From NCBI GenBank assembly GCA_007693585.1, contig REDH01000124.1, positions 1 to 33,218 on the forward strand: a stretch of DNA of 33,218 bases, written 5' to 3'. Below the pieces are notes generated by a model, which saw only the letters and a program-made list of their open reading frames with translations, ran no database searches and was not told the origin of the DNA. Origin of the DNA: Deltaproteobacteria bacterium (GTDB taxonomy: Bacteria; Myxococcota_A; Bradymonadia; REDH01). This document shows positions 19,210 to 22,831 of this stretch, in pieces; the stretch's first letter is position 1, and every line of letters begins with the position of its first letter. A program made the position numbers and the translations under genes.

Positions 19210-20748
19210 TCAGCCGTCGACGGGTGGTCCGGCGGGATCGTCGGCGACGGGGTCCGTGTCGTCGGAGGCTTCCTGGTGCGCAACGTGTGCGTCGCGCGCA
19301 CCCTGTGCGTCATGCGCAACGTGTGCGTCGCTGTCGGGTTCGTCGGGTTCGGTGTGGCCGCGATCGCGGGGGTCGTCGGGGACGAGCTCCGAGCGGCCGC
19401 GCTCGACGAGCCAGCGGTCGAGGGCGTCGACGAGGGGCCGGACGCCCTGTCGGTCGAGGGCACTGACCTGGATGCCGTCCTCGAGGAGGGCGAGATCGTT
19501 CTGCTCGACGGGTTCGAGGCGGTCGATCTTGTTGAAGACGCGCAGGGCGGGGAGATCACCGAGTTCGAGTTCCCGCAGGAGGGCGTCGGTGGACTGGGCG
19601 TGGGAGGGCCAGTTGGGGTCGGAGGCGTCGAGGACGTGGAGGAGGAGGTCGGCGTCGCCGAGTTCCTCGAGGGTGGCACGGAACGCTTCGCGCAGCTCGG
19701 CGGGGAGGTTTCGGATGAAGCCGACGGTGTCGGTGAGGACGACCTCGCGTTCCTGGGGGAGGCGGAGTCGTCGGCTGGTGGGGTCGAGGGTGGCGAAGAG
19801 CTTGTCCTCGCTGAGGACGGTGCTCTGGGTGAGGGTGTTGAGGAGGGTGCTTTTTCCGGCGTTGGTGTAGCCGACGATGGCGACGACGGGGACGCGGTTG
19901 TCGCGTCGTCCCTTGCGGCGGAGCTCGCGGTCGGCGCCGAGCCGATCGATGGCCTTCTCGAGCATTCGGATGCGGTCGCGAGCGCGTCGGCGGTCGATCT
20001 CGAGGCGGGTTTCGCCGGGTCCGCGTCCGCCGATTCCGCCGGCGAGCCTGCTCATGGCGGTGCCTCGTCCGGAGAGGCGCGGGAGGCGGTACTTGAGTTG
20101 GGCGAGTTCGACCTGCAGTTTTCCGCCGCGGGACTGTGCGCGCTGGGCGAAGATGTCGAGGATGAGCTGGGTGCGGTCGATGACGCGGAGCTGGGTGCGC
20201 TGGTTGATGGAGCGTCCCTGTGCGGGGGAGAGGTCCACGCCGAAGACGAGGAGTCCTGCGCCGAGCTGGAGTGCGCGGAGTTCGATCTCCTCGAGGGCGC
20301 CGGAGCCGACGGCGAATTTGGGGTCGAGCTGCGGCCTGCTCTGGGTGTAGGTCTCGAGAACCTCGACGCCCGCGGTGCGGCAGAGTTCCCGGAGTTCCGA
20401 GAGGTTCTGTTCGGCGTGCCGGTCGTCGCGGGTGCGGACGTAGACGAGCATGGCGCCTTCGCCCCCGGTGCGGACGGTGTCGTCGGTGGCGGCCTCGAAT
20501 TCGCTCTCGAGTTCGGCGATGAAGGTGCTGAAGGTCCAGTGGAGGTCGGTGACGTGCCGTTCGCGGTGGATGGCCCAGAGATTCCGTTCGGGGTTGTCGG
20601 GGACGAGGTGGGCCCAGACGACATCACCGGCGCGTCCGTCGTCCTCGGCGCGGATGGAGACGACGAGGTCGAGCTTGAGTCGGCTGAGGTCGGTGAGGTC
20701 GTCGCTGGCGAGTTCATCGCCGCGCAGTCGTGTTCGGATGAGTCGCAC
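19210..20748 (-). CDS. hflX: GTPase HflX (first canonical start; conserved N-terminus extends to about 21024)
   Basis: HflX is a ribosome-binding GTPase that splits stalled 70S particles after stress. From the GTG at 20748 there are 512 residues. The GTP-bdp N domain holds GSGALEEIELRALQLGA; the coiled linker and Gly-rich GGIGGRGPGE turn follow. The G domain has G1 GYTNAGKST (Lys299), G3 DTVGF and G4 NKID. The frame stays open upstream and translates to a recognisable N-terminal domain (HGQTRGLKASQRKAL, ELNKAIGALVDRRGN, LYLPDLGRTRAG) continuing into RFRGVRL. The real protein therefore almost surely begins about 90 residues earlier, near 21024, where no ATG, GTG or TTG exists in frame; ATC codons at 21024 and 21021 are candidates. 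The C-terminal tail is acidic and His-rich with three six-residue repeats. Confidence 0.93.
   Translation of the reverse strand: MRLIRTRLRGDELASDDLTDLSRLKLDLVVSIRAEDDGRAGDVVWAHLVPDNPERNLWAIHRERHVTDLHWTFSTFIAELESEFEAATDDTVRTGGEGAMLVYVRTRDDRHAEQNLSELRELCRTAGVEVLETYTQSRPQLDPKFAVGSGALEEIELRALQLGAGLLVFGVDLSPAQGRSINQRTQLRVIDRTQLILDIFAQRAQSRGGKLQVELAQLKYRLPRLSGRGTAMSRLAGGIGGRGPGETRLEIDRRRARDRIRMLEKAIDRLGADRELRRKGRRDNRVPVVAIVGYTNAGKSTLLNTLTQSTVLSEDKLFATLDPTSRRLRLPQEREVVLTDTVGFIRNLPAELREAFRATLEELGDADLLLHVLDASDPNWPSHAQSTDALLRELELGDLPALRVFNKIDRLEPVEQNDLALLEDGIQVSALDRQGVRPLVDALDRWLVERGRSELVPDDPRDRGHTEPDEPDSDAHVAHDAQGARDAHVAHQEASDDTDPVADDPAGPPVDG
19276..19329 (-). repeat. Three 18-bp tandem units in the hflX C-terminal tail
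   Basis: Units at 19276-19293, 19294-19311 and 19312-19329 encode DAHVAH, DAQGAR and DAHVAH on the minus strand. Units 1 and 3 are identical apart from the first base; unit 2 is diverged. They are in frame, so expansion or loss of a unit would not disrupt the gene. Confidence 0.8.
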
Positions 20749-21052
20749 GCCGCGGAAGCGTGTTCCGCCGGCTCGGGTGCGGCCGAGGTCGGGGAGGTAG
20801 AGTCGGTCGGCGGAGCCGACGACGAGCGCGGCGATGTTTCCGCGTCGGTCGACGAGCGCACCGATGGCCTTGTTGAGTTCGCGGGAGAGGGCGCAGAGTG
20901 CCTGTGCGAACTCGGGCTGGGTGGGGAGGTCCTGTCGGAGTCGCCGTGTGGCGAGCTTGTCGAGGGCCTTTCTCTGGCTGGCCTTCAGACCTCGGGTCTG
21001 GCCGTGGACGAGACGGGAGATGATGGATTCTCGTGTGCGAGGGGGCCTGTAA

Positions 21053-22831
21053 TCAGCGGCCGTGTTCGCGCAGGAAGTCTTCGAAGGTGGCCCGTCTCGG
21101 GTCGTTCGGTCGTGCGCGGAGGAAACGTTCGGCGGCCTGTGCGGCCCGGCTGTTGTTGCCGATGGCTCGGTAGTTCTGGAAGAGCATGGCGTCGAGGTCG
21201 GCGTCCCTGCTGTTGAGGGAGCGTGCTTCCTCGAGCATGCGGATGGCGGTCTGGTTGTCGCCGCGGATGGCGACGCGTCGTGCTTCGGCCTTGAGTTCGT
21301 TGGCTCGCGCGATGGGGTCGGCGGCTTCTTCGGCGGCGGCTGGTGGGTCTTCGGTGCCGGGTCTGGCGGGCCGTTCGGTACGCGCGGCGGTGGGGGATGC
21401 GTTGGCGGCCACCGGTCGTTCGGGGGCGGGGGTGCGTTCGGCGGTGGGGGTGCGTTCGGCGGTGGGGGTGCGTTCGGCGGTGCGTTCCCGGTTGGCGGCG
21501 AGTTGCTGGTCGAGCTCGCGGAGGCGCCGGACGAGCCGTTCGTCGGCGGGGGTGTGTCGTCGGGCGCCTTCGATGGTGGCCCGCGCTTCGCGGAGGTTTC
21601 CGACGTCCTCGAGCGCGTAGGAGGTCTCGACGGCTTCCTCGACGAGTCCGTCGAGGAGCTGCTGTTCGAGTCGTTCGTTGGCGGCGAGGGTGTGGTAGTA
21701 GGAGCCTGTGGGGAGTCCCCGGAGGAGGTCGAGTGCGTCGGTGTATTCGCCGAGTTCCTTCAGGGCCTGGATGTCGGCGTAGATGGACTCCCGGGCCATT
21801 TCGTTCTCGGCGCGCTGGCGGAGGCTCTGTGCGAAGGCGTGTTGCGGGTCTTCGCTGTCGACGCGGTCGAAGGCATCCATGGCGTCCTGCCAGCGTCCGT
21901 CGGCGATGAGTCGTTGTCCTTCGGAGATGTCCTCGGCGGCGCTGGAATCGCGGGCGGTGGAGGGAGTGGGTGCGGCGGGGGTGCGTTCGGCGGTGGGTGG
22001 CTCGGGGGTGGGTGTGTCCCCGCTTCGCAGGAAGAGGATGACGGCGAGGACGGCGAGGACGCCGGCGACGCCGAGGAAGGGCAGGAGCCATCCTGGCCGG
22101 GCGGCGGTTTCGGCGGCGGCGTCTTCGGGCGGAGGCCAGGCGAGGGCGTCGCCGCGCGCGATGTACTTGTAGGCGACCTGTCCGAACTCGACGCGGTCTC
22201 CGGTCTTGAGCCAGGCGGTGGAGATGGCTTCGCCGTTGACGAAGACGCCGTTGGCGCTGTTGAGGTCCTCGAGCACGTGTCCGGCGGCGTCGATGCGCAG
22301 GAGGGCGTGTCGTTTGGAGATGCTGCGGTGCTCGATCTGGATGTCGGCGGTCTCCCCGCGGCCGATGACAAGGATGGGCTGGTCGGGGAGATGGATGGGG
22401 TGTTCGTGGTCGGGGTCGGCGAAGCCGAGCAGGGCGCCGTGCCGGGAGGTTTCCTCGGTGTTTCCGGCGGCCATCGGGGGCAGCGCGGATCCGTGCGGCT
22501 CGGTGTCGGAGCTGGCGAACTCATCGCCGGGGGCCGCGGCGCTGTCGTCGCGTTTCAGGAAGAGGCGGTAGTCCCCGATGGTGATGACGTCGCCGATCTG
22601 GAACGGCGTATTGCTCTGGACCCGGCGGTTGTTCTTGCGGGTGCCGTACCGGGACAGGTCCTCGATCTGGTACTGGTCGCCGTCGCGCACGATCCGCACA
22701 TGTTCCCGGGAGACGTTCTCCTCGGTGAGGCGGATGGTGTTTCCCTCGCGGCGCCCGATCGTGATCTCTTCGCGGACGAGCGGGACGGACGTCCGTTGTC
22801 CCTGATCATCCTGTATGACGAGCTTCATCAT
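21053..22831 (-). CDS. Tandem-FHA membrane protein with helical (TPR-like) C-terminal part
   Basis: The product has 592 residues. FHA domain 1 covers about residues 3-95 (Gly26-Arg27, SREH at 41-44, then YGTRKNN). FHA domain 2 covers about 152-230 (IGRGE around Gly157, SKRHALL, SANGVFVNG). Both keep the Gly-Arg, Ser-x-x-His and Asn-Gly residues that bind phosphothreonine. A single transmembrane helix lies at about 248-270, followed by a Pro/Thr/Ala-rich linker and a helical region with TPR-like spacing (ALDLLRGLPTGSYYHTLA, and AIRMLEEARSLNSRDADL near the end). N-in topology would put the FHA domains in the cytoplasm and the helical part in the periplasm. A link to Ser/Thr kinase signalling is inferred; no kinase is in the window. 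Two adjacent ATGs start it. It heads the hflX-mfd series. Confidence 0.85.
   Translation of the reverse strand: MMKLVIQDDQGQRTSVPLVREEITIGRREGNTIRLTEENVSREHVRIVRDGDQYQIEDLSRYGTRKNNRRVQSNTPFQIGDVITIGDYRLFLKRDDSAAAPGDEFASSDTEPHGSALPPMAAGNTEETSRHGALLGFADPDHEHPIHLPDQPILVIGRGETADIQIEHRSISKRHALLRIDAAGHVLEDLNSANGVFVNGEAISTAWLKTGDRVEFGQVAYKYIARGDALAWPPPEDAAAETAARPGWLLPFLGVAGVLAVLAVILFLRSGDTPTPEPPTAERTPAAPTPSTARDSSAAEDISEGQRLIADGRWQDAMDAFDRVDSEDPQHAFAQSLRQRAENEMARESIYADIQALKELGEYTDALDLLRGLPTGSYYHTLAANERLEQQLLDGLVEEAVETSYALEDVGNLREARATIEGARRHTPADERLVRRLRELDQQLAANRERTAERTPTAERTPTAERTPAPERPVAANASPTAARTERPARPGTEDPPAAAEEAADPIARANELKAEARRVAIRGDNQTAIRMLEEARSLNSRDADLDAMLFQNYRAIGNNSRAAQAAERFLRARPNDPRRATFEDFLREHGR
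21431..21481 (-). repeat. 18-bp tandem repeat in the FHA protein linker
   Basis: The unit ggtgcgttcggcggtggg occurs at 21431-21448 and 21449-21466, with a partial third copy at 21467-21481. On the minus strand it encodes ERTPTA repeats. A related single copy lies near 21979 in the segment just after the transmembrane helix. Confidence 0.85.

Follow-up and report, generated by a model that had tools for sequence, protein, structure and literature searches.

Few bacterial genes are known to have conserved AUH or CUG start codons. Among the closest described systems is infC, which encodes initiation factor IF3, starts with AUU, AUC or AUA and is autoregulated by IF3 (PMC5472188, PMC13009471). 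In Streptomyces, the stress gene sigR starts with GTC behind a strong ribosome binding site and is conserved within its lineage; IF3 has been shown to repress the non-canonical start of sigR, and such repression is also described for infC (PMC5472188). The Staphylococcus aureus genes ccpN (AUA) and cvfC1 (AUU) combine a conserved weak codon with an extended Shine-Dalgarno (SD) sequence, and reporters with AUU or AUA starts gave reduced protein in this species (PMC13009471). In Escherichia coli a weak start was proposed for lepA, a translational GTPase, and shown for pcnB (PMC1780047). HflX splits 70S ribosomes, and IF3 is an anti-association factor that prevents their reassociation (PMC9067457). 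Among open-licence PMC papers, we found none linking hflX to AUC, ATT, ATC or any other rare or non-canonical start.

Here we analyzed the hflX locus of a 33,218-nt stretch of DNA (the window; contig REDH01000124.1 of a Deltaproteobacteria bacterium) together with its relatives. The locus resembles infC in having an aligned non-canonical codon among relatives, an SD sequence (weak in the window itself, score 8), a coding boundary, and no in-frame canonical alternative.

Reading frame and candidate start of hflX

The hflX gene is on the minus strand with its frame ending at 19210, and RPPRTRESIISRLVHGQTRGLKASQRKALDK, SRELNKAIGALVDRRGN, and RLYLPDLGRTRAGGTRFRGVRL are read in the open frame. The product matched TIGR03156 (GTP_HflX) at 440.6 bits, above the equivalog cut-off of 216.75, and contained the GTP-bdg_N, GTP-bdg_M, and MMR_HSR1 domains. 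These matches identify the gene as hflX. Its product here is the long-form GTPase, with 70S splitting predicted from the family. No Pfam model matched the first 91 residues, and solved HflX chains matched only from profile position ~166, leaving the N-terminal region (20410–21021, minus strand) mostly uncovered.

ATG, GTG, and TTG were absent from the hflX frame for 338 codons, from the in-frame TGA at 21762 to the GTG at 20748, which extends a claim that a sequence-only reading of this DNA had made back to about 21360. The stretch upstream of that GTG reads IISRLVHGQTRGLKASQRKALDKLATRRL...SRELNKAIGALVDRRGN...RLYLPDLGRTRAGGTRFRG and is stop-free in the hflX frame, which stays open into the upstream gene fha. 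As the same reading had it, the fha stop (TGA, 21055–21053) lies 28 bases before the ATC at 21024. It had also recognized a conserved N-terminal domain upstream of GTG 20748, and this was borne out with 52 aligned homologues: the domain is encoded from ATC 21021/21024 onward, and a start at the GTG would cost 91 residues of an N-terminal region of ~200 residues conserved across them. A conserved start-codon column near the domain boundary, as an internal start for a short isoform would leave, was looked for in the alignment and none was found.

The sequence-only reading had put forward the ATC codons at 21024 and 21021 alike. An ATC start held up; the equal standing of the two did not. The start in class-mates precedes the invariant Gly of H-G-[DN] by six codons, a position held in the window by ATC 21021–21019, and the sole SD-like match at normal spacing belongs to this codon and not to ATC 21024. 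Because of this position and this match, we prefer ATC 21021–21019 as most likely the best start in the window. Several class-mates (L010, L014, L020, and L023) likewise have a pair of neighboring ATH codons, of which the second again has the better-spaced SD. The SD in the window is weak, and how efficiently hflX is initiated there may therefore hinge on re-initiation following fha. Feature coordinates are given in Table 1.

Table 1 Features of the hflX start region, in positions of the window.
Feature	Positions	Strand	Basis
hflX coding sequence as proposed, ATC initiation, 603 codons plus stop	19210..21021	-	TIGR03156 match, open frame, class-wide alignment
Proposed start, ATC (AUC); initiator fMet-tRNA expected to read it	21019..21021	-	Alignment with ATC/ATT/ATA in 30/30 f1/f5/f7 genomes; SD spacing
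Neighboring alternative ATC, less likely start	21022..21024	-	Lies one codon ahead of the start shared across the class; lacks a normally spaced SD-like match
Weak SD-like GAGA ahead of ATC 21021, weaker than in most relatives	21029..21032	-	Score 8, spacing 4
GTG, first canonical codon of the frame, 91 codons in; not accepted as the start	20746..20748	-	Conserved coding upstream; start codon not conserved at this internal position
N-terminal domain of long-form HflX, ~200 residues	20410..21021	-	Conservation in the alignment of 52 homologues
fha, the upstream gene, with FHA and TPR domains; its stop is 31 bases ahead of ATC 21021	21053..22831	-	Frame and domain matches

Start codons in the class, beyond it, and in other genes

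We located hflX in 57 genomes of the class, spanning seven families (f1 to f7), and read the start region in 50. The aligned first codon was ATC, ATT, or ATA in 30, CTG in 11, and canonical in nine. Families differed: the window's family (f1), f5, and f7 had ATC, ATT, or ATA in 30/30 genomes, f2 and f6 had CTG in 11/14, and f3 and f4 had ATG. The sequence-only reading had held that ATG or GTG at the equivalent place in relatives would speak against it, and the alignment of orthologous starts showed neither in any f1, f5, or f7 relative. More distant lineages do have canonical codons at this place, as one would expect if it is the start. An in-frame stop is often found 1–10 codons upstream of the weak codon (for example, TGA CCT ATC GCA CGC GAG ATC TAT GGC), and an earlier start in that frame is therefore impossible.

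Outside the class the equivalent position is occupied by ATG, GTG, TTG, CTG, ATC, ATT, or ATA; many lineages have one of the first three, and the weak codon is not universal. Long-form loci of Acidobacteriota (L281–L294) have ATC or ATT in 13/14 cases, and a further phylum-level group that includes Corallococcus sequences (n = 30) divides into 14 weak, 14 canonical, and two ambiguous. After duplicate removal, 198 distinct loci from the Myxococcota-type groups and Acidobacteriota were assignable (four were ambiguous), with 114 non-canonical starts (68 ATC, 20 ATT, 20 CTG, and 6 ATA) and 84 canonical. In 79/114 weak loci the interval from the upstream stop to the weak codon contains no canonical codon at all. 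On a FastTree phylogeny of the HflX N-terminal region, the weak/canonical label changed at least 27 times, an approximate figure from a short alignment, compared with 64 on average when the labels were shuffled. By this comparison the weak start is inherited yet has been switched repeatedly, and is a multi-lineage feature of long-form hflX rather than one genome's peculiarity.

Some individual loci stood out. The hflX start of L176 is apparently ACG, while its close relatives L165, L170, and L174 have GTG. Corallococcus sicarius carries two long-form hflX copies in a single genome (L154/L244 and L207/L248); one, the L154 copy, has ATT behind AGGAGG, and the other has TTG. Two public MAG records with myxobacterial-type hflX, L141 and L189, are titled Bifidobacterium breve and Klebsiella pneumoniae and are probably mislabelled.

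Other genes served as controls. Within the class, ychF starts with ATG in 30/30 genomes, obg with ATG or GTG except in f2 (ATT/ATC in 5/7), and infC mostly with ATG or TTG but in a few genomes with ATT or ATC; the weak start is thus not exclusive to hflX. In a syntenic 200-kb comparison of two f5 species (146 gene pairs), we saw no further gene in which coding clearly reached upstream of a canonical start, and the limited gene pairs compared in the window's family gave no clear case besides hflX. The G008/G035 comparison was left out because the two are not syntenic. Considered as further weak-start candidates, hemL and uvrB were rejected since both have good ATG starts. With f2 obg and some infC excepted, ychF, obg, infC, and both gene-pair surveys led us to reject generally sloppy start usage in these genomes. 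Across the genes compared, the weak start is rare, concentrated in hflX, and at times common to other ribosome-associated factors.

Details of the exceptions were as follows. The apparent ATT or ATC start of obg, which encodes the GTPase ObgE, was seen in f2 loci L265, L274, L276, L278, and L279 (e.g., CCC ATC AAG TTC ATC), with an in-frame stop a few codons upstream in L278; the equivalent start is ATG or GTG in f5 and f7 and GTG in two f2 members. For infC, loci L227, L237, L231, and L382, one of them outside the class, have ATT after AGGAGG or an apparent ATC, and several genomes carry two infC copies.

Shine-Dalgarno strength, coding boundary, and alternative readings

An SD score of at least 11 preceded 102/114 weak starts, mostly at a spacing of 1–5, and a fixed-window metric gave 90% at the weak start vs 13% at in-gene control positions. 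SDs were stronger at weak than at canonical starts (median 14 vs 9, Mann-Whitney p = 2e-16), a strength that at weak codons is partly selected by our assignment rule, which took the AUG-like codon before the conserved Gly and scored ties between weak codons by SD. The boundary test below and the upstream stops are independent of this rule. A blind SD test without spacing gave a moderate signal, with an AUG-like codon at the best-SD position in 46% of cases in frame vs 15% and 4% in the other frames.

In close pairs, the 12 codons before the weak codon differed at positions 1/2/3 in 109/140/129 cases, and the 29 codons after it in 65/51/230, with most changed codons synonymous. The third-position bias appears only after the weak codon, and translation therefore begins there, give or take a codon or so. 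The proposal that hflX, like infC, is initiated at a rare codon is supported in that relatives keep the codon or swap it only for AUG-like ones, with coding constraint and an SD at the same place. From these comparisons the start position, its conservation and recurrence, its SD, and the lack of a canonical alternative in most loci are well supported. We conclude that HflX is very probably translated from a conserved, selected weak start codon, most likely ATC 21021–21019.

Other readings place the start elsewhere. Translation from GTG 20748, with the upstream sequence not translated as HflX, is what a gene finder restricted to ATG, GTG, and TTG would choose; we consider it very unlikely, because protein conservation of the 91 upstream codons reaches from the class families to Acidobacteriota, with third-position bias from the weak codon on, and because the start codon is not conserved at the position of the GTG: among weak-start loci, the distance to the first canonical codon downstream varies from 3 to 126 codons. 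HflX might instead arise by a frameshift that extends the product of the upstream gene, or from a canonical start farther upstream: the frame in the window is open into fha, and 35/114 weak loci do have some canonical codon farther upstream. However, the 79 loci without one before the upstream in-frame stop, often 1–10 codons away, and a coding signature that stops at the weak codon make this highly improbable. That an ATG was lost through sequencing or assembly error would fit a window from a 223-contig draft assembly, but the same kind of codon occupies the same place in 29 other independently assembled f1, f5, and f7 genomes and in many further lineages. This reading is scarcely credible, and the base error for which the sequence-only reading had advised a check is excluded. 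We thus rejected a start at GTG 20748 on the grounds of conservation, a sequencing error on those of the relatives, a frameshift or fha fusion on those of the upstream stops, and a conserved second start inside the gene for lack of a start-codon column.

One further reading accepts the same start site and differs only on regulation. The weak codon would merely reflect a low need for HflX, through drift or level tuning, and IF3 would not be a regulator. AUG-like codons do recurrently replace one another, and the S. aureus AUU and AUA reporters give less protein (PMC13009471). Pure relaxation should weaken the SD too, however; that SDs are instead stronger at weak starts speaks against an unimportant start having simply decayed. 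We regard low need as a real possibility, a little short of an even chance. Selection on the weak start, rather than accident, is what the SD and codon comparisons suggest for hflX initiation.

A possible link to IF3 and comparison with known systems

In the mechanism we propose, hflX would be initiated at ATC by ordinary initiator fMet-tRNA. The selected arrangement is a near-cognate codon (AUC, AUU, or AUA; CUG in a sister family) with, in most lineages, a strong SD. IF3 rejects near-cognate codons and would keep HflX synthesis low; output would rise with an excess of 30S subunits over IF3 or with a loss of initiation fidelity. The supply of a factor that splits 70S ribosomes would thereby be tied to the state of the free-subunit pool, parallel to IF3 control of infC. 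By analogy, we tentatively suggest that HflX may be under IF3-dependent start-codon control in several phyla, with IF3 and HflX forming one homeostatic circuit that senses the free 30S:IF3 ratio and that the related GTPase Obg has joined in some lineages, although we hold this to be somewhat doubtful.

The recurrent weak-start pattern was present in >100 genomes examined, and hflX adds a widely distributed ribosome-associated GTPase to the genes with such starts. Because gene finders accept only ATG, GTG, and TTG, many annotated HflX proteins probably lack part or all of this domain at their N terminus. Whether HflX supply is set by initiation fidelity and IF3 is now a concrete, testable question.

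Compared with the known systems, hflX shares with infC an AUH codon conserved over long distances, SD assistance, and a product that acts on free ribosomal subunits (PMC5472188, PMC13009471). Since hflX does not encode IF3, its control would have to act in trans, and infC itself, unlike hflX, seldom departs from ATG or TTG in the window's class. The likeness to sigR lies in a non-canonical codon with a strong ribosome binding site (PMC5472188), whereas the sigR codon is GTC, is confined to one genus, and has been tested experimentally, the hflX start being predicted by sequence comparison. The S. aureus genes ccpN and cvfC1 offer the same pairing of conserved weak codon and SD (PMC13009471), in other genes, in Firmicutes, and with initiation mapped by Ribo-Ret. 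Finally, lepA and pcnB are akin to hflX in their weak starts, but they are isolated cases (PMC1780047), in contrast to the recurrent, multi-lineage pattern of hflX.
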